From contig CANQEW010000001.1 of assembly GCA_947596085.1 (NCBI GenBank), forward strand, positions 62,001-126,000: a stretch of DNA of 64,000 nucleotides. Direction: 5' to 3'. Under the pieces are notes generated by a model. The model was not told where the DNA came from. It was given only the letters and a program-made list of their open reading frames with translations, and searched no databases. Positions 19,040-30,871 of the stretch are shown here, piece after piece. The stretch's first letter is position 1, and each line of letters starts with the position of its first letter. The position numbers were made by a program, and so were the translations under genes. The DNA comes from an uncultured Clostridia bacterium (GTDB lineage Bacteria; Bacillota; Clostridia; Christensenellales; Aristaeellaceae).

Positions 19040-22000
19040 TCACTTTACCGACGTCGGCGGATTGCAGTACGGGCAGGCCTTGAAGTCCCACCGAACCGCG
19101 AAGTCCAGATCCACACTGGTTCCGCCGGAGAAGCCCGCGTCGCTGCAGCGCGCGTTCTTGTGGTAGTAGAACTGCGTGCTGTCCGGATCGACGTACACCT
19201 GCGTGTCGCCGCTCGCGGAATACTTAACGTCGGATTCCTCGTATGCCTCGGAGCCCGTGATGCAGACCGGGCAGGCCTTCTTGCCCAGCGCCAGCGCCGC
19301 AGCCCAAGTGCCGGAGGAAGCCCCTGAGCCCGCATGAGTGCGGCTGGCGTGGTAGTATTTATCGGAGGACGTGGCGTACACCGTCTTCTTTGCGGCGCTC
19401 GCGCAGTTCGGGCAGGGCTTCTTGCCATAGTTCATGGCCGTCTCCAGCGTGACCTGCTGCGCACTCTCGCCCGCGCAGGACTTGCGCGTGTGGTAGTAAC
19501 TGCCGGACACGGTGGCGTACACCTTGAGCCCCGACGCGCCCGACTTATAGGTCTTGGAGTTGGACACCTCCTGCGTGCGCGTCACGCAGATCGGACAGGC
19601 GTCCAAGCCGTAAGCCAGCGCCGAGGAGAGCGAGCCGGATTTTGCGCCCGCGCCCGCGCAGGTCTTGGAGCGATGGTAGTACCGCCCGCCGGCCACCGCG
19701 TATACCGTCGTTCGGGCCGCCGAAAGGCAGGTCGGGCAGGCCTTCTTGCCGTAGTTCAGAGCTGTCTCCAGCGATACCTGCCGCGCGCCCGACCCGGCGT
19801 GCTCCTTGTACCTGTGGTAGTAGCTTCCTTCCGCCGTCGCGTATACCTTGACGCCCGAGGTGCCCGCCTTGTAGGTCCCGGAGGACGAGAGGGCCGGGCC
19901 GTCGGAGCTGGTGACAGCGGAAACGTTCATCTGATGGGACTGCACGTTGGTCACCGTGCCATTGCCCGCACTGCTATTCGTACTGTTATTCGCGCTGTTC
20001 GCGCCGCTCGTGCTGCCAATGCAGACCGGGCAGGCGCTCTGGCCCAGGATCAGGGCGTCCTGCAGCGTGCGCTGCTGGGCGTTATGCATCCCGGAGCAGC
20101 TGGCGTTCGTATGATAGTACTGGCCGCCCGAGGTGGAGTACACCATGCGGTTCGCCGCGGAAGCGCAGGTCGGGCAGGCCGTCTTGCCAGCCTTGACCGC
20201 CGCGGAGAGCTCGCCCCGCGTGGCGCCCGTCATGCCGGAGCAGGTGGCATTCGTGTGGTAATACTGGCCGTTCTTCGTGGCGTACACATAGACCTTACCG
20301 TCGCCGGAGCCAGCCTCATCGCCGTTCTTCCAGCAATCCGGGCACTCCTGCTTGCCCAGCGCCATGGCCTGCGCCTTGGTGCCCGCGACGGCATTCTTCA
20401 TGCCGGAACAGGTCGCGTAGGAGTGATAGTACTTGCCGTCGGGCGTGGCATACACCACGGCGTTCGCGCCGGTGGCGCAGGTGGGACAAGCCTTGCGACC
20501 CATCTCGATCATCGTGGTCAGCGGCACGCGCGTGGCATTCTGCATGCCGGAGCAAGTGGAATTGGTATGGTAATACTGGCCGTTCTCGGTGGCGTACACA
20601 TAGACCGTGCCGCCGCTGCTGCCGGAGCCTCCGGAACCGCCGGTGGCTCCGTTGAAGCCGACGGTGGACGCGCCCCAGCACTTGGCGCAGCGATCCTTAC
20701 CCAGAATCAAAGCTTCCGCCAACGTGCCCTGCACGGCGTTCTTCATTCCGTCGCAATCGCTCTTGTTGTGATAGCGGTCGCCATTACGCGTGAACCAGAC
20801 CGAGGTCTCCGCGGAGGAGGCGCAGGTCGGGCAGGCCGTCTTGCCATCGAGAATCGCCTTCAAGAGGCCCACGGATTTCGCGTCCTTCATGCTGGAACAG
20901 GTGGCGTTGGTGTGATAATACTTGCCATTGTCGGTGACATACACGCTCTTGCCGCTCTTGTCCGTGGAGGAGGAGGTGACGAAGCGCATCTCGCCCTTCT
21001 TCACTGAGTTGACCGTCTTCAGAATGCACACCGGGCAGGCCGTCTTGCCTTCCTTCTCGGCGGCTTCCTTGGTGATTTCCACCGCGTCCTTCATATCGGA
21101 GCAGTTGGGGTCCACGTGGTACCAGGTGCCGTTTGCGGTGGCGTAATACTTCTCCTGGCCGGGATAGCAGCTCGGGCAGGCCGTCTTACCCTGCTGGATC
21201 GCCGCCTCCTGCGTCAGAGTGGAGACGGCCGCGCCCGCCTCAATGTACGTGCAGTTCGGATTGTTGTGGTAGTACAGGCCGGTCGCCGTGGTCATCACCG
21301 TGCCGGTGGCCGTCGTGCCGGTTCCACCGCTGTAGCCGGCGATCGGAGTCGCCGACGCGTCGGGCGAGAGCGCGTCCATGGTCTGCACGGGCGTGAGGCC
21401 GTCGGTCGCGCCGGGCTGCGCGCTGCCCGAAGGCGCCGCGCTCGACGAAGCGTTCCCCAGCGGGGACACGCCGCTGCTCAGCGCGTCCTCCAGCAGCGAA
21501 CCGGCCGTCGCTTCGGCCGAGGGCCCCACGGAGGGCTGCGCCGTGGCGGGCGGATTCATGGTGATCGGCGGGTTCGTCTTGGCATCGCCACCGCCCGCCA
21601 GAATCGCCGAGATCAGCAGGATCAGCAGAATCACGAACCAAACGCCCGAGGCCGCAGAGACGATCCAGCGGATCGGCGTCTCGAAGCGCCGCCTGCGCCA
21701 GAGCAGATAGATGCCCAGCGGCGGCAACAGCACCAACAGCGCGTAGGTGACCCAGTCGTTTTCATCAATATAGCGCATCAGCGGGTTTTCGCTGCCATAG
21801 CCCGGATCGTCATCGTAGCCGCCGGCGTCCTCGTCGGAGTAGCGATCGTCATAATCGCCCTCGGCGTAGTCGTCGTCGTAATAGCCATCGTCCGAGTAGC
21901 CGTCTTCGGCATAATCGTCCTCGGCGTAGTCGTCGTCCGCGTAGCGGTCGTCGGGATAGCCATCCTCGTCGTAGCCGCCGTAATCATCGCCGTAGTCGTC

Positions 22001-22255
22001 ATAGCGCGATGCGCTCCGCCCGCGTGAAGCGAAGCGGCCGGTATATCCGCCGGTGACAGCAGCGTCGTCGTCCGCCGGGTAGGCGTCGTCCACGTACGCC
22101 TGATCATCCATATAGGCGTCGTCGTAGGTTTCCTCCGCGTCCTGGCCCCGCTTTTTTCCAAAGCCGATGCGATGGATCTTGCCGTCCCCGATACGGAAGG
22201 CAATTCCATCGTCAGACGTGTTGAATTTTAAAAATCCAATCTTGTGTGTTGCCAT
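19040..22255 (-). CDS. membrane-anchored protein with 13 tandem His/Cys modules
   Basis: A 1071-residue protein. Residues 1-40 are basic with short repeats (HKIGFLKF, HRIGFGKK). Residues 40-160 are Asp/Tyr-rich. Two transmembrane helices lie at about 169-186 and 197-221. A Pro/Ser/Thr/Ala linker runs to about 320. Thirteen modules of about 45-60 residues follow, most with the pattern VYAT-x-x-G-x-YYH...C-x-G-M...A...G-K-x-A-CP-x-C. In modules 9 and 12 the first cysteine is replaced by histidine, which would keep a zinc-ligand set. Single modules of this YH...C...CxxC kind occur at the ends of various Firmicutes surface or nuclease proteins. A 13-fold array is exceptional. Zinc or redox roles are inference. 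GAGGTGG precedes the ATG. Confidence 0.8.
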   Translation of the reverse strand: MATHKIGFLKFNTSDDGIAFRIGDGKIHRIGFGKKRGQDAEETYDDAYMDDQAYVDDAYPADDDAAVTGGYTGRFASRGRSASRYDDYGDDYGGYDEDGYPDDRYADDDYAEDDYAEDGYSDDGYYDDDYAEGDYDDRYSDEDAGGYDDDPGYGSENPLMRYIDENDWVTYALLVLLPPLGIYLLWRRRRFETPIRWIVSAASGVWFVILLILLISAILAGGGDAKTNPPITMNPPATAQPSVGPSAEATAGSLLEDALSSGVSPLGNASSSAAPSGSAQPGATDGLTPVQTMDALSPDASATPIAGYSGGTGTTATGTVMTTATGLYYHNNPNCTYIEAGAAVSTLTQEAAIQQGKTACPSCYPGQEKYYATANGTWYHVDPNCSDMKDAVEITKEAAEKEGKTACPVCILKTVNSVKKGEMRFVTSSSTDKSGKSVYVTDNGKYYHTNATCSSMKDAKSVGLLKAILDGKTACPTCASSAETSVWFTRNGDRYHNKSDCDGMKNAVQGTLAEALILGKDRCAKCWGASTVGFNGATGGSGGSGSSGGTVYVYATENGQYYHTNSTCSGMQNATRVPLTTMIEMGRKACPTCATGANAVVYATPDGKYYHSYATCSGMKNAVAGTKAQAMALGKQECPDCWKNGDEAGSGDGKVYVYATKNGQYYHTNATCSGMTGATRGELSAAVKAGKTACPTCASAANRMVYSTSGGQYYHTNASCSGMHNAQQRTLQDALILGQSACPVCIGSTSGANSANNSTNSSAGNGTVTNVQSHQMNVSAVTSSDGPALSSSGTYKAGTSGVKVYATAEGSYYHRYKEHAGSGARQVSLETALNYGKKACPTCLSAARTTVYAVAGGRYYHRSKTCAGAGAKSGSLSSALAYGLDACPICVTRTQEVSNSKTYKSGASGLKVYATVSGSYYHTRKSCAGESAQQVTLETAMNYGKKPCPNCASAAKKTVYATSSDKYYHASRTHAGSGASSGTWAAALALGKKACPVCITGSEAYEESDVKYSASGDTQVYVDPDSTQFYYHKNARCSDAGFSGGTSVDLDFAVRWDFKACPYCNPPTSVK

Positions 22256-22354
22256 ATATTTCCACCTCTATCGTGCAAGCTCACTCGTTCGTCCGATCGT
22301 ATCTCCCGCACGAAGTTTCCACGGGATGCCCTTGCGCCTCGCGTACCGATTATA

Positions 22355-22382
22355 ATTATACCTGCTTTCCTGCGGGCCACAA
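22355..22382 (-). promoter_or_regulatory. promoter of the 13-module protein gene
   Basis: TTGTGG (22382-22377) and TATAAT (22360-22355) on the minus strand with a 16-bp spacer. Confidence 0.55.
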
Positions 22383-22613
22383 GTACGCACTTCCTTGTAA
22401 CCTATTTACTTTATTTGTAATAATTATAATCACTATAAGCATACAACAGAACCCTTTCTCTGTCAATATGATTGTGATGAAAAATTTTAGCCATAATCTT
22501 GCGTTTGAATTGACATTTATAACTTATCTAATTTAATATGTCTGCAATTATACGAAATACTTTTGAAATACATATAGAAACCCATTGATTGTCATTTTTT
22601 TCTGATATTTTTA

Positions 22614-22622
22614 TGCTATAAT
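22614..22622 (+). promoter_or_regulatory. extended -10 promoter of the CapA-like gene
   Basis: TGCTATAAT at 22614-22622 lies about 37 bp before the ATG. No good -35 box is at standard distance, so the TGn extension probably compensates. Confidence 0.55.
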
Positions 22623-22658
22623 CATTGTAGGAGACATATCATTTGGAGGAGAACGACA

Positions 22659-23945
22659 ATGTCCAGAAACAGAGGTCTGCGAATCGGCAACTACAGAATT
22701 CAGCCGCTGGGGCTGGCCGCCCTGATCCTGATTCTACTGATTATCATTGCGTGCGTGATCATGTTCGCCGGCAAGCCCTTCGAGGTGGGCGGCGGTGGGT
22801 TCCTTTCGCCCACGGCCACGCCCAGCCCGACGCCCTACATCACGCCCGAGCCCACACCCGTGCCCACGCCCACTCCGGCGCCCACGCCGCGCTCGGCGAC
22901 GATCCGTTCGCTGGGAGAGATTGCCATCCAGGACAATCTGCTCGCCGCGGCCAGGACCGACGACGGTAACTACGACTTCGGCGACATGTTCAGCGAGATT
23001 TCCGGCGTCATGGGCAACGCGGATTACACCGTGGCGGACGTCGAAGGTTCCCTCGGCGGAACTGCGGATGCCTCCGGCAGCGGGCAGATGCTGACCCCGC
23101 CGTCGCTGATCGAGGCGCTCGCGGCCAACGGCGTGGACATGCTCAATATCGCCAACGACCACGCGCTGGACGGCGGCTGGACCGATCTGCAGGCGGCGTT
23201 CGCGAACTGCAGCGCGGCGGGCATGGAGTACGTCGGCGGCGCGCCCTCCCAGGCCGAGCACGACGCGGCCAAGGTCATCGACATCAACGGCATCAAGGTG
23301 GGCTTCGTCGCCTACACCGAGACGCTCAATGGCATGGAGGAGCAGACCGACGCCGACGCCGTGAAGTACGGCGTGAACCTCGCGCTCAAGAGCAAGCCGC
23401 AGGACGACGTGCAGGCCTGCCGCAACGCGGGCGCGGAGATCGTGGTGGCCTACGTCAGCTGGGGCGAGATGTTCAACCGCGAGCCCACAAAGAACCAGCA
23501 GACCATGGCCCAGGTGCTGGTGAAGTGCGGCGTGGATGTGATCATCGGCTACAACCCCCACGTCATCCAGCGCGCCCTGTGGCTCGAGCTGAAGGACGGC
23601 TCCGGCAACGTGACCCAGCGCACGCTGTGCATGCTCTCCAATGGCAACTTCCTGTCCGACTCCCGCGAGCAGTACAGCGACTCCGGCGTGATCTTCCAGT
23701 TCACCATCCAGGAGAAGGATGATCTGAGCGGTCTGGAGATCGTGAATCCGACGTATATTCCCACCTACGTCTGGCGCATCGAGAACGAGGACGGCACCTA
23801 CGACTATCGCCCGGTCGCCTGCGGCCAGTGGCTGGAGAGCGCGCCGGAGGGCATGAACTACACCCAGGAGAGCCGCATGCGCGCGGTATGGGCCGAGGCC
23901 CAGAGCGCCATGGGCTCCGACGTGGCGACGGTGGCCAACGAATAG
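22659..23945 (+). CDS. CapA-family (PGA_cap) metallophosphatase-fold surface protein
   Basis: A 428-residue protein with an N-terminal signal anchor (about 17-38), a Pro/Thr linker with repeated PTP units (about 50-75) and a PGA_cap domain (about 85-350). The family is related to CapA of polyglutamate capsule synthesis and to calcineurin-like phosphoesterases. Visible motifs are DVEGSL, NIANDHALDGG, YVSWGEM and LSNGNF. The usual GHHPHxxQ reads GYNPHVIQ, so one metal-site histidine is replaced. GGAGGAG precedes the ATG. No other capsule genes adjoin it, so the true substrate is unknown. Confidence 0.85.
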   Translation: MSRNRGLRIGNYRIQPLGLAALILILLIIIACVIMFAGKPFEVGGGGFLSPTATPSPTPYITPEPTPVPTPTPAPTPRSATIRSLGEIAIQDNLLAAARTDDGNYDFGDMFSEISGVMGNADYTVADVEGSLGGTADASGSGQMLTPPSLIEALAANGVDMLNIANDHALDGGWTDLQAAFANCSAAGMEYVGGAPSQAEHDAAKVIDINGIKVGFVAYTETLNGMEEQTDADAVKYGVNLALKSKPQDDVQACRNAGAEIVVAYVSWGEMFNREPTKNQQTMAQVLVKCGVDVIIGYNPHVIQRALWLELKDGSGNVTQRTLCMLSNGNFLSDSREQYSDSGVIFQFTIQEKDDLSGLEIVNPTYIPTYVWRIENEDGTYDYRPVACGQWLESAPEGMNYTQESRMRAVWAEAQSAMGSDVATVANE

Positions 23946-26374: not shown

Positions 26375-27229
26375 TCACTCTCCGTAGATGAACGCGTGCA
26401 AAAGCTCCCGGTTGCGCTCGAAATTCGGAACGATTTTCCATATGCCGCCCATCATGCCGGATTGGAAGGTTCCATCCGCGGGAATGCGGTTCTGCTCGAC
26501 CTCCGAGACGTCCATGACCATGAACGCCATGCTGAGATCTTCCAACTCGTCGTCATCCAGGCTCGTCTGGATGATGCTCTCGATGTCGTCCGCGACCGCC
26601 GCCAGCTCGTCGACCTCCATGTTCTGCGCCTTGTCCGCCATCGTGAGCAGCACCTTCTGCTGCCGCATGACGCGCCTATAGTCGCTGTCGATGTAGCGGA
26701 TGCGGCAATAACTCATCGCCAACAGGCCGTTGAGGTGCACCATCCCGCTCTCGTTGATTGAGCGCGCGCCCGCGTATGCCTTCCCGGTGTAACCGCTCGC
26801 GTAGCTGTTGATCTGTTTGCGCTCCTTCTCCGTGATCTCGATGTCGATGCCGCCCAGGAGGTCGATGATCTCCACCAGATCCTCCATGTTCACGATCACA
26901 TAGTCCTCAATATCGGTACCAAAGCACTGGTTGACCGTCTCCACCGCCAGTTCCGGACCGCCGTAGACGGTGGCGGCGTTGATCTTTCCGGTGGAGGACC
27001 TGCCGGGAAACTGGACCCAAGTGTCGCGCATGATGCTCGTCATCTTCACGAGGGATTCGTTCCGATTGATGGAGAGTATGATCATCGAATCCGAACGATC
27101 GTACTTGTCCATGTTCCGCGCGTCCCCGCCCAGCAGCAGGATGTTCTTCCATCCGCCCTCCTCCGCCTGGACAGCCGAAAAGGAGAGCGCCGCGACAATC
27201 GCGAGCGCGATCAAAAACAGCTTGCGCAT
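26375..27229 (-). CDS. LytR-CpsA-Psr family protein
   Basis: A 284-residue exported LCP protein. The family transfers lipid-linked polymers such as teichoic acid or capsule to peptidoglycan outside the membrane. The ATG at 27229 begins a clear signal peptide (RKLFLIALAIVAALSFSAVQA). The LCP core has DRSDSMIILSINR, SIMRDTWVQFPG, GGPELAVETVNQ and RIRYIDSDYRRVMRQQKVL, which keep the Arg and Asp residues that bind pyrophosphate. The gene follows the CpsB-type phosphatase by 4 bp and ends the loaP operon. The upstream frame to 27322 lacks a site. Confidence 0.9.
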   Translation of the reverse strand: MRKLFLIALAIVAALSFSAVQAEEGGWKNILLLGGDARNMDKYDRSDSMIILSINRNESLVKMTSIMRDTWVQFPGRSSTGKINAATVYGGPELAVETVNQCFGTDIEDYVIVNMEDLVEIIDLLGGIDIEITEKERKQINSYASGYTGKAYAGARSINESGMVHLNGLLAMSYCRIRYIDSDYRRVMRQQKVLLTMADKAQNMEVDELAAVADDIESIIQTSLDDDELEDLSMAFMVMDVSEVEQNRIPADGTFQSGMMGGIWKIVPNFERNRELLHAFIYGE

Positions 27230-27233
27230 GATT

Positions 27234-27980
27234 CTATTCCGCGTCCTCCGTATTTTCCTCATTCGCGCCGAACAGCAGATGGCCGTCGGCGAGTTCATTC
27301 GCGTAATCCTCTCCGAATTCATGCTTCAGCGTCAGCCACGCCTCGCGCATGTTGATCACGCGCACCGACGCCGCACGATGCGCATCCGTGGAGATGATGT
27401 CCAGCAAATCCCAATCCAAAATCTTGTTGACAAAGTGCCGCGTGCGCATGTCGTGCCCGCGGATGATGCTGGAACAATTCACCTGATAGTATACGCCCAG
27501 CTCGTGCTTGATCTCATTCAGGCGGGCGGGATGCTTGAGCAGGCAGTTGTAGCGTTCCACGTGCGCCACGATCGGCAAATAGCCGCTGTGCAGCAGGTTC
27601 GTGAGCGCGCCGTGCAGGCTTCCATAGCGCACGTCCGGGGAAAACTCAACGAGCACATAGTCGGTCCCCGCCATCGTGGGAATGCGGCCGTCCTCCAGAA
27701 AGCGGCAGGTCTGATCCGTATAGAGGATCTCCGCTCCACCGAATATTTCAATGTCCAACCGCTTTTCCGCGCAGTAGGCGCGGGCGTCCTCCAGGGCGCG
27801 GTCGTACTTTTCCCGGTTGAAGCGCTCGATGCCGGGCGTGGCGTGGGGCGTGGCGACGATTCTGCCGATTCCCTGCTCCGCGGCCTTGCGCAGCATCGCG
27901 TACATTTCTTCCATGCTCTGCGCACCATCATCGATTCCATGGAGAATATGACAGTGCATATCCGTCAATTTTTGCATCAT
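27234..27980 (-). CDS. CpsB/YwqE-type tyrosine phosphatase (PHP fold)
   Basis: A 248-residue metal-dependent phosphatase that removes phosphate from the tyrosine cluster of the partner BY-kinase, resetting polysaccharide export. PHP motifs are visible: DMHCHILHGIDDGAQS, ATPHATP, GAEI, VEFS, VAHVERY and STDAHR. Its ATG overlaps the stop of the kinase gene by 4 bp, so kinase and phosphatase are translationally coupled. Confidence 0.92.
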   Translation of the reverse strand: MMQKLTDMHCHILHGIDDGAQSMEEMYAMLRKAAEQGIGRIVATPHATPGIERFNREKYDRALEDARAYCAEKRLDIEIFGGAEILYTDQTCRFLEDGRIPTMAGTDYVLVEFSPDVRYGSLHGALTNLLHSGYLPIVAHVERYNCLLKHPARLNEIKHELGVYYQVNCSSIIRGHDMRTRHFVNKILDWDLLDIISTDAHRAASVRVINMREAWLTLKHEFGEDYANELADGHLLFGANEENTEDAE

Positions 27981-28738
27981 TGATCACTCTCATCGGAACT
28001 GACGCGCCGCACTTTCGCTTGATCGCTCGTCGGCTTGTAGTAATCCGAATAATAATTGGAATAATAGGATCTGTTGTAATACTTCTTGCTGCTGAGCGCA
28101 TCCAGATCCACTTCGTTGAGCACCGCGCCCAGCACCGCGCAGCCGGTGCGCATGATTTGGCGCTTGGCCTCCAGCAGTTCGCGGCGGCCGACCGAGTTAT
28201 ACTTCACCGCGAAGATCGTCCCATCGCAAGACTTCGCGATCTCCGCCGCGTCGATGATGACGCCCACCGGCGGCGCGTCCACGATCACAAAATCGAAGCG
28301 CTCCGACAGGTAGCTGAACATCTGCTTGAGCCGGGGCGTGCTCAGCAGCGCCAGCGAGTTGGACACCTCGCGGCCCACCGGAATCATGTACGCCCAGGGG
28401 ATGCTCGTCTCATACAGCGCGTCGTTCAGGGAGCACATGCCCGCAAGGTAGTGCGCCGTCCCGTAGCCCGTTCCCGCCAGAACGTGCACGCCATACTTGG
28501 CAGAGACCTGCGATCTGCGCAGGTCGCAGTCCACCAGAACCGTCTTTTTGCCCAGTTGCGCCATGGTGCGCAGAATGTTCATCGACAGGAAAGATTTGCC
28601 CTCATGGGCCTGCGTGCTCGTCACCATGATGACGCGCTTCTCATTGCCCACGAAGGTCAGATTCGTGCACAGGGTATTGATAGCTTCCTTACAGGCATAA
28701 TCCAGCCCCTGGAACCGCGTAAACTCCAGCTTATTCAT
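27977..28738 (-). CDS. CpsD/YwqD-type tyrosine kinase (BY-kinase)
   Basis: A 253-residue cytosolic autokinase of the polysaccharide co-polymerase system. Walker A is AHEGKSFLSMN, Walker A-prime is VLVDCDLRRSQ and Walker B is FDFVIVDAPP. The C-terminus carries the tyrosine cluster YYNRSYYSNYYSDYY that is autophosphorylated in this family. It needs the membrane modulator encoded just upstream (28740). The start is separated from that gene by a single base. Confidence 0.93.
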   Translation of the reverse strand: MNKLEFTRFQGLDYACKEAINTLCTNLTFVGNEKRVIMVTSTQAHEGKSFLSMNILRTMAQLGKKTVLVDCDLRRSQVSAKYGVHVLAGTGYGTAHYLAGMCSLNDALYETSIPWAYMIPVGREVSNSLALLSTPRLKQMFSYLSERFDFVIVDAPPVGVIIDAAEIAKSCDGTIFAVKYNSVGRRELLEAKRQIMRTGCAVLGAVLNEVDLDALSSKKYYNRSYYSNYYSDYYKPTSDQAKVRRVSSDESDQ

Positions 28739-28739
28739 C

Positions 28740-29507
28740 TCAGCGCCTCCGCTTTTTGCCGTCCGAACCCCTGCGCTCGGGCCTCTCGGCGTTGCTATTC
28801 GTGGGCACGACGGCCAGCGCGGCCATATCGGCGTATTTGCGAATGTCGTCGGACGTCTTGATCCGGTCGTCCATCAAAAACTGCACCGTGAGCACGGCGA
28901 TCATCAGCAGTGCCCCGATCACGAAACCGATGACAATATTGAGCACCCTGCGGGGACGAACCGGCTTCTGCGGCAACAGCGCCTTGGAGAGAATGGACGG
29001 CTCGTTGGTATCCATGGTCCGAGATATGTAAGCGCACGCGACCTCGGCATACGTATTGGCGAGATCCATCGCCTCCTTGGCATCGTTCGAGGTGATCGTA
29101 ACGTCCAGTATGCGCGTATCGCTCGGATTGGTGATGGCGAGCATGTCTTCCAGCTCTTCATAGCTGTAGTCCAGCCCCAGGTTCTGAATCACCTGCTCAT
29201 GAACTTCCCAGGTATGGAATACCTCCTGATAGTCGGCCGTGAGGTAGTTGCCAATCTGAAAATCGGAGAGATTGATGGCCGAATCACTGCTGTGGGTCAC
29301 GTAGATGCGGCATGTCGCCTCGTACTCCGGCACCGCCAGCACGAAGCTGTAGATTGCGAAAATCACCATGCCCACCACAGCTGCGGCGGCAATTTTTCCG
29401 ATATTCTCCAGCAGACGATAGGGGAGTTCGAGTAAATCAATCTCGATTTCGCCGTCCTCCACAGTCTCCACGGCGCGATCCATTCCCTGTAAATCTCTTT
29501 CCGCCAT
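28740..29507 (-). CDS. CpsC/Wzz-type chain-length modulator
   Basis: A 255-residue membrane protein with two transmembrane helices, at about 36-58 (IAAAAVVGMVIFAIYSFVL) and about 190-210 (IVIGFVIGALLMIAVLTVQF), around an extracytoplasmic loop. The second helix is preceded by the Pro-rich KPVRPRR. This is the Wzz/YveK layout that activates the BY-kinase and sets polymer length. The C-terminus (RPERRGSDGKKRRR) is strongly basic. Confidence 0.9.
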   Translation of the reverse strand: MAERDLQGMDRAVETVEDGEIEIDLLELPYRLLENIGKIAAAAVVGMVIFAIYSFVLAVPEYEATCRIYVTHSSDSAINLSDFQIGNYLTADYQEVFHTWEVHEQVIQNLGLDYSYEELEDMLAITNPSDTRILDVTITSNDAKEAMDLANTYAEVACAYISRTMDTNEPSILSKALLPQKPVRPRRVLNIVIGFVIGALLMIAVLTVQFLMDDRIKTSDDIRKYADMAALAVVPTNSNAERPERRGSDGKKRRR

Positions 29508-29529
29508 ACCTTCGCCTCAATTTTGTATT

Positions 29530-30279
29530 TCAGAACAAGCTATCCTCGTAAAACACACCGATCGCAAGCTCTTGAATCGCGGCCTCGTCCGGCAGAAGCT
29601 CGTCCGCCCGGAAAATCGTCGGCAGATCGACCGTCTCCGCGACCTCGTAGCGGTCGGCCTTATCCAGCGCGCGCATCACCGCGCCGCTTTTCATATCCGT
29701 GATAAGATATTCGCTGAGCACACCGTACAACTCGTTGAGCTGCTTCGACGGCATCGCCTCCAGCGCCAGCCGCAGCAGGTGCAGCCGCTGCCGCGCGTCG
29801 CCCTCGATTCGCCCGAGCTCCGTTACGGCGCTGACGCCATCCAGATCGACGCCCATGTAATCATTGATCAATTCGACGCCAAACATGCCGTTCACCGCCG
29901 CCGCCATGCGCAGCAGGTCTTCATTCGGATCCTCCCCCAGCGCATAGACTTCCCGCAACGGCAACCGGCGGCCCTCGACTTCCACCATCACCGCGCCGTC
30001 GATGTAGACCGGCGCGATCCGCTTTTCATTATCGTCAATCGCGAACAGCGCCGCAAAATCCGCGCGCGGCACGCCCGCCTCGTCCGGCAGAATTCCGGCG
30101 ACCAGTATCGTCGTCATTCGATCGCGCAGGTAGTAGGTCTTGCCGGCGTACTCCATGCGCGGCACGTTGCTGAAGCGCTCCTCCAGGTCGCCATGCCCCG
30201 ACTCTCCCAGAGCCAGCCCCGCCGCCAGGTACAGCAACAGCACAAGGATCGCGCAGCGCCGCGCGGAAGGCTTTCTCAT
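29530..30279 (-). CDS. degenerate LCP-like exported protein
   Basis: A 249-residue protein with a signal peptide or anchor (about residues 10-27). The segment MTTILVAGILPDEAG...RADFAALFAIDD resembles the start of an LCP domain. Where active LCP enzymes have SLPRDT, this protein reads VYIDGAV, so the catalytic Arg region is missing. It may be a non-catalytic partner or adaptor. The ATG at 30279 overlaps the stop of the loaP-like gene as ATGA, so it is coupled to it. Confidence 0.65.
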   Translation of the reverse strand: MRKPSARRCAILVLLLYLAAGLALGESGHGDLEERFSNVPRMEYAGKTYYLRDRMTTILVAGILPDEAGVPRADFAALFAIDDNEKRIAPVYIDGAVMVEVEGRRLPLREVYALGEDPNEDLLRMAAAVNGMFGVELINDYMGVDLDGVSAVTELGRIEGDARQRLHLLRLALEAMPSKQLNELYGVLSEYLITDMKSGAVMRALDKADRYEVAETVDLPTIFRADELLPDEAAIQELAIGVFYEDSLF

Positions 30280-30827
30280 TCTTCTTCCCTTTCGATCAAT
30301 TCGAACCCCAGCCAAACCGTGACCCGGTTGCCACCCACTTCCAGCGCGATCTGCGCCGTCTGCGACCGCCGGTTCACGCGAATGATCTGCCCCGCGTATG
30401 CCTTGAGCAGACCGTCCGTGACGCAGATGCGGTCCCCCTCGTAATAGGCCTTCGAAAAGCCAACCACGCCGTTTTGCGTGAACAGATAGCGCGCGATGTG
30501 CAGATCCTCACCGCGCAGCGCCCAGATGCCCTCCGAATCGCGCAACAATCGAAACACATCCTGCCGCCGCACGAACTGCCGCGCGTCGATATTCGCGCCG
30601 GTGCGGAAAAATAAATAGCCCGGGAAGAGCGGCACGGCTTCCTCAATTTTACCGGGACCCACCCTGCGCCTGCGCAGCTTCTCCGCGAAGATCGCCTGAA
30701 CTTCCGGAAATTCCGATTCAATCTCGGCAGCGAGGCTCTTCTCCTTGCCCGTCCGGCAGAACAGGCAACCGTATTTCATCCTCCCGTCCCTCTCGGGGGG
30801 GAGTATGTCTACCTCCCATGCGGACAT
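30276..30827 (-). CDS. loaP: LoaP/NusG-like transcription antiterminator
   Basis: A 183-residue NusG paralogue. The N-terminal NGN domain starts at KYGCLFCRTGKEKSLA and contains VPLFPGYLFFRT. The C-terminal KOW domain includes YEGDRICVTDGLLKAYAG. LoaP proteins in Firmicutes sit at the front of long polysaccharide or antibiotic operons and suppress termination within them. GGGAGG 7 bases before the ATG at 30827 selects this start. ATG 30779 and an upstream start at 30869 are weaker. It is the first gene of the LCP/CpsC/CpsD/CpsB operon. Confidence 0.85.
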   Translation of the reverse strand: MSAWEVDILPPERDGRMKYGCLFCRTGKEKSLAAEIESEFPEVQAIFAEKLRRRRVGPGKIEEAVPLFPGYLFFRTGANIDARQFVRRQDVFRLLRDSEGIWALRGEDLHIARYLFTQNGVVGFSKAYYEGDRICVTDGLLKAYAGQIIRVNRRSQTAQIALEVGGNRVTVWLGFELIEREEE

Positions 30828-30871
30828 CGCTTCGCCTCCCGAATGGACAGTTCTGCGCACAATACACATTT

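Follow-up and report, generated by a model that had tools for sequence, protein, structure and literature searches.

Within the window, a stretch of 64,000 nucleotides, one minus-strand gene encodes a protein built largely of repeated His/Cys modules. The locus raises the question of what these modules are, on which side of the membrane they lie, and what a protein carrying so many of them could be for.

Architecture of the array protein

The coordinates of the gene, its protein regions and the adjacent partner gene are collected in Table 1. The ATG is preceded by a plausible Shine-Dalgarno sequence, and the GC3 of the reading frame is 0.84. The product begins with an acidic tail, continues with two hydrophobic segments that enclose an RRRRFETPIR loop, and reaches the modules through a Pro/Thr-rich linker; the modules occupy the C-terminal ~750 residues. 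Exactly 13 matches to the pattern [Y/W]H-x4-[C/H]-x(18-24)-C-x2-C were found, compared with a mean of 0.0045 and a maximum of 2 when the array residues were shuffled, so the thirteen tandem modules described in the earlier note are confirmed. All 37 Cys of the protein fall at module ligand positions (13 x 3 minus two His replacements), and the replacements in modules 9 and 12 that had been pointed out previously are present in the sequence.

Table 1 Features of the array gene, its protein product and the adjacent partner gene
Feature	Position	Strand	Evidence or remark
Array protein, 1071 aa (N-terminal tail, two hydrophobic segments, linker, 13 modules)	19040..22255	-	Intact ORF, orthologues
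Acidic N-terminal region, aa 1-165	21761..22255	-	Net charge -35
Conserved N-terminal motif MATxxIGKLKFNxSxxGIAFRxGDGEI	22166-22255	-	Within aa 1-30
First hydrophobic segment WVTYALLVLLPPLGIYLLW	21698..21754	-	Conserved PP-x-G
Second hydrophobic segment	21587..21673	-	Preceded by RRRRFETPIR loop
Module 1 core (YH...CxxC)	21167..21271	-	
Module 2 core	21026..21121	-	
Module 3 core	20822..20917	-	
Module 4 core	20678..20773	-	
Module 5 core	20477..20572	-	Modelled jointly with module 6, mean pLDDT 94.6
Module 6 core	20333..20428	-	Modelled jointly with module 5
Module 7 core	20165..20260	-	
Module 8 core	20021..20116	-	
Module 9 core	19727..19819	-	His as second ligand
Module 10 core	19586..19678	-	
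Module 11 core	19403..19495	-	
Module 12 core	19262..19354	-	His as second ligand; modelled singly, mean pLDDT 93.8
Module 13 core	19064..19165	-	Terminal, unpaired
Intergenic region common to array and CapA genes	22256..22658		
CapA-family gene, divergent, conserved partner	22659..23945	+	PGA_cap PF09587, E 9.6e-45

No NCBIfam model matched the array protein. Pfam matches of the full protein to PAS_9 and PilJ_C were rejected because they are below cut-off, short and span repeats. DUF4236 at the N-terminus was retained as a lead only (hhalign probability 24%, no Pfam match); the N-terminal motif of the array protein, MATxxIGKLKFNLSKxGIAFRWGDGEI in its more specific form, weakly resembles this domain, which likewise precedes a nuclease with one terminal module (L090). 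A phage origin was also discarded, as there was one PHROG end-match of unknown function and no IMG/VR relative, and the best-matching 'phage' record turned out to be a tad-pilus operon. That record (L201, MT835924.1 1897-10184) bears the label 'Bacteriophage sp.' (unverified, human faeces); its content reads as bacterial, and its TadE-like protein ends in two modules of the array type. A plasmid search gave no match.

Probable metal ligands and predicted relationship to the Ada domain

The first ligand is His in every one of 674 distinct modules. At the second position Cys is found in 611, His in 49, Asp in 12 and another residue in two (Cys/His/Asp in 672/674), and each of the last two ligands is Cys in 673/673 countable modules. 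For comparison, His and Asp together account for 3.4% of the residues at other positions. A set of 58 array proteins contains 2049 Cys, of which 1890 are ligands and 19 lie outside the modules. Replacements of the second ligand cluster in modules 10 and 12 across genera; among orthologues L107-L173, module 10 carries His or Asp in 25/34 and module 12 carries His in 30/34. Exchange of this Cys almost solely for metal-binding residues is hard to explain other than by a metal site, and one invariant His with three Cys (two in the His/Asp variants) per module is a poor fit to disulfide stabilisation. Each module probably folds about a single zinc ion, with His, Cys (or His/Asp), Cys and Cys as its ligands. 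The metal site suggested earlier is thereby upheld, the ligands being near-invariant rather than freely variable among family members. Metallothioneins likewise carry many metal-binding Cys on one chain but are short and very Cys-rich, with metal-thiolate clusters, whereas Cys makes up 3.5% of the array protein (37 in 1071 residues), with one ligand set per predicted folded domain of ~47 residues and no such clusters.

Confident folds were predicted by AlphaFold2 both for modules 5-6 and for module 12 alone, one of the two His variants (Table 1). With the single-module model as Foldseek query, the sole PDB entries returned were 1wpk, 1u8b and 1zgw, all of them the Ada N-domain (TMq 0.53-0.61, E 1.8-3.0), and VIA gave Z scores of 3.5, 3.3 and 2.2 against the three Ada chains, each below 4. 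Only Ada chains reached Z >= 2 in structure comparison (Z 3.9 to 2.2, 44-48 aligned residues, 2.4-3.2 Å). Taken singly these Ada matches are not significant (Foldseek E > 1, Z < 4), and no other fold appears. Viral models named 'Metal binding domain of Ada' matched the module model with a probability of 1.00.

Profile comparison by hhalign linked the array modules to single modules of other Bacillota (99.2%) and these single modules to Ada (94.4%). A bridging set that the Pfam Ada model detects was linked to Ada at 97.9%. Along the hhalign chain A2-A7-A6-A5, the H-C/H/D-C-C ligands of the modules align to the positions of Ada Cys38, 42, 69 and 72, with the invariant His opposite the methyl-acceptor Cys38. 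These four Cys are the zinc ligands of Ada, and Cys38 accepts the methyl group (PMC10814553). Since His replaces this nucleophilic Cys of the methylphosphotriester repair protein throughout the 674 modules, they are predicted to be incapable of Ada methyl transfer.

A PDB sequence search with module profiles reached Ada at E 1, not significant on its own, and PF02805 matched neither the full array protein at E up to 1 nor anything in the whole host genome at E <= 0.01. Against individual modules PF02805 matched 1 of 22 (best E 0.0036), and paralogue L003 scored 14.9 bits, the Pfam cut-off being 23. Because the modules fall below this cut-off, they should not be filed as PF02805 members. By computation from fold models and profiles, the array modules are relatives of the Ada zinc domain, in agreement with the Ada-type resemblance noted before. 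The Ada N-terminal metal-binding domain (PF02805; 1u8b, 1zgw, 1wpk) appears to share the small fold and has the four ligands in equal order; the array modules have His for Cys38, an x4 spacer, where Ada has x3, ahead of the second ligand, and a shorter middle. Compared with the Ada protein, the array protein is without repair or AraC domains, and its modules stand in membrane-anchored arrays of 5-16.

Conservation of the array and distribution of its modules

Sampling of the host's family turned up array orthologues in 59 of 200 genomes, representing 23 of 50 genera. All three host-genus genomes examined have an array gene, one of them in split form. In one species of the genus (L127, also L038) the array gene is divided between two overlapping ORFs, one with two modules and the other with twelve, through a frameshift or an assembly error. 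A scan of named genomes gave 71 loci, and almost all of these come from metagenome-assembled Clostridia of the gut or rumen; Candidatus Pullichristensenella, Candidatus Faecivicinus and Candidatus Excrementavichristensenella are among the named relatives.

Array copy number and module identity are conserved across genera. Exactly 13 modules are present in 32/59 complete array ORFs, the remainder having 2 to 16, and among 14 diverged 13-module proteins the best match of a module elsewhere is nearly always the same-numbered module, which indicates that the array layout is old and fixed. Start-to-start spacing alternates between about 47-52 and 62-93 residues and so divides the array into six pairs and one terminal module. 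The most alike are pairs 9-10 and 11-12 (61.1% identity), followed by pairs 5-6 and 7-8 (57.6%), which supports pair duplication as an ancient event. The proposal that the array grew by duplication of pairs is thus sound as to the pair sub-types; recent or free expansion is contradicted by the predominance of 13 and the orthology of positions. Four other proteins of the host genome carry modules: one has five, one has two and the remaining two have one each. The five-module protein (L002:52-2019, minus strand; G000 C37) is a second array protein with one N-terminal hydrophobic segment, and its relative in the same genus (L047:3726-6908) has nine modules.

Across the phylum, the module was present in 50 of 398 genomes, with no more than two per protein examined outside the host's family, and 291 genomes of the class gave one- or two-module matches only, the window's own genome excepted. 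Single modules terminate secreted SNase-like nucleases, DNA/RNA non-specific endonucleases, metallo-beta-lactamase-fold proteins, TadE-like pilins, a trypsin-like protease and peptidoglycan-binding proteins. The occurrence of single copies in other Firmicutes, mentioned in the earlier note, is borne out by these counts, and within the sampled genomes long arrays seem to have arisen in the host's family alone. The C-terminal modules of Bacillota SNase, DNA/RNA non-specific endonuclease and ComEC-like metallo-beta-lactamase-fold proteins share the His-Cys-Cys-Cys ligands (hhalign 99.2% and 92.8%) but occur in one copy, occasionally two, joined to an enzyme and without a long array. TadE-like pilins resemble the array protein in their one or two C-terminal modules and expected surface location, and differ from it in having at most two modules, another anchor and a tad pilus operon context. 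The modules are no new type but members of a widespread Ada-like zinc module group carried singly or in pairs on secreted proteins; it is the long array that is undescribed in the literature searched.

Probable surface location, the CapA neighbour and possible roles

The loop that joins the two hydrophobic segments carries 4.5 Lys plus Arg residues on average, as against 0.8 in each 20-residue flank. Under the positive-inside rule this excess would place the loop inside and both the N-terminus and the array outside. Two true transmembrane helices would leave both ends on the same side, so that a cytosolic tail with a surface array requires a first segment that does not cross the membrane; the N-termini of paralogues that share the anchor are basic, which is compatible with such a segment. 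The acidic N-terminus and the two hydrophobic segments of the earlier description stand, while its cytosolic placement of the N-terminus is at odds with the charge counts. Membrane topology is ambiguous, and under either arrangement the array is probably outside the cell. In the opposite orientation, with both termini inside and the loop outside, the array would be cytosolic. The Ada domain acts on DNA within the cell (PMC10814553), and no cleavable signal peptide was recognised by eye in the array protein, in keeping with that orientation; we consider it very unlikely in view of the loop charge, the Pro/Thr-rich linker that follows the hydrophobic segments, an N-terminal hydrophobic segment and Pro/Thr-rich linker in the CapA partner, and relatives with the same anchor that bear secreted-type domains (L089).

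A divergent CapA-family gene lies beside the array gene in 39 of 56 loci with sufficient upstream sequence and is usually followed by mutY. A poly-gamma-glutamate capsule system would pair such a CapA/PgsA protein with PgsB and PgsC. A conserved capsule operon or downstream gene was rejected, since only CapA, often with MutY, is common to the loci and other neighbours in the window are not kept. On the minus strand at 26375-30869, a few kb from the CapA gene, genes assigned by eye resemble NusG/antiterminator, Wzz-type CpsC, tyrosine kinase CpsD, phosphatase CpsB and LCP proteins and suggest a capsule-regulation operon.

The intergenic region shared by the array and CapA genes contains a PerR/Fur-like palindrome (TTATAGTGATTATAATTATTACAA, 13/14) that is similar in the close relative L173 and absent from other genera. 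Its 15-bp core has one mismatch-free occurrence in the genome, the palindrome overlaps a likely -10 sequence, and PerR/Fur control of the array was rejected on these grounds. The palindrome would suit a surface shield of reactive thiols or a surface redox sensor, as would 37 Cys per chain. Such a role is nonetheless highly improbable, because the palindrome is confined to the host genus, with that single exact copy in the genome, and the invariant His and the Cys-to-His/Asp exchanges retain metal binding yet cut thiol content.

Thirteen probable sites per chain with nearly invariant ligands could serve as a surface reservoir or buffer that loads zinc or another metal in plenty and releases it in scarcity. 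A Cys3His site within a fold usually binds zinc tightly, however, and single copies are found on nucleases, metallo-beta-lactamase-fold proteins and pilins, for which storage would be senseless. Copy number and module identity are also fixed, and no Zur operator common to the orthologues was found (best matches at 8-11/14 positions, mostly no better than shuffles, with no common site). No metal transporter or other metal gene was seen among the array-gene neighbours examined. A reservoir is, on balance, distinctly unlikely. The roles first considered, namely zinc store, sensor or thiol shield, are less favoured now that the sites look structural, with one His and two or three Cys per module, a fixed copy number and no adjacent metal gene seen.

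The array is positively charged in 36/46 orthologues (median +41); the other 10 are not positive, and some arrays are acidic. This charge, together with the enzymes that bear single modules, underlies the suggestion that the array binds an anionic polymer. One form of this suggestion is a multivalent extracellular DNA/RNA binder for uptake, feeding or biofilm, by analogy with DNA binding by the Ada N-domain. The usually basic arrays agree with it, as do related modules on three nuclease-like kinds of secreted protein (SNase, DNA/RNA non-specific endonuclease and the ComEC-like metallo-beta-lactamase fold) and on TadE-like pilins; a metal-dependent nuclease activity reported for ComEC (PMC8579336) points the same way. 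Nucleic acid as the specific ligand is still unlikely, as the basic residues flanking the last two Cys of Ada (FRPCKRCRP) are mostly missing in array modules (GKTACPxC), modules also occur on protease and peptidoglycan-binding proteins, and the acidic arrays do not fit.

We favour a zinc-stabilised, fixed-length, multivalent surface scaffold that acts with CapA and is not a zinc store, and put its chances at about even. The array protein would be a membrane-anchored, most likely surface-exposed scaffold in which structural zinc does in an anaerobe what disulfides do elsewhere, and the six pairs and one module would give a multivalent array of fixed length. It may display binding surfaces for an anionic polymer, which could be a polymer of the capsule or wall or else nucleic acid outside the cell, and on which it would act jointly with the divergently encoded CapA-family protein. 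More tentatively, the pair may constitute an undescribed surface system of gut and rumen Clostridia, in which a thirteen-module zinc-stabilised array derived from a disabled DNA-repair zinc domain and a CapA-family protein would jointly bind an anionic surface polymer or extracellular nucleic acid, or help to organise it.

The module type is already known, being Ada-like; descriptions of the long fixed array, its anchor and its linkage to CapA were not found in the open-access literature searched. Array and CapA form a conserved gene pair of uncultured gut and rumen bacteria, the array half of which is covered by none of the Pfam and NCBIfam models used. The array also offers a testable case of zinc in lieu of disulfides in the surface proteins of anaerobes. 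If the proposed reading is true, a zinc domain familiar chiefly from a DNA-repair sensor would be a general extracellular building block in anaerobic Bacillota, assembled into arrays of 13-16 copies.
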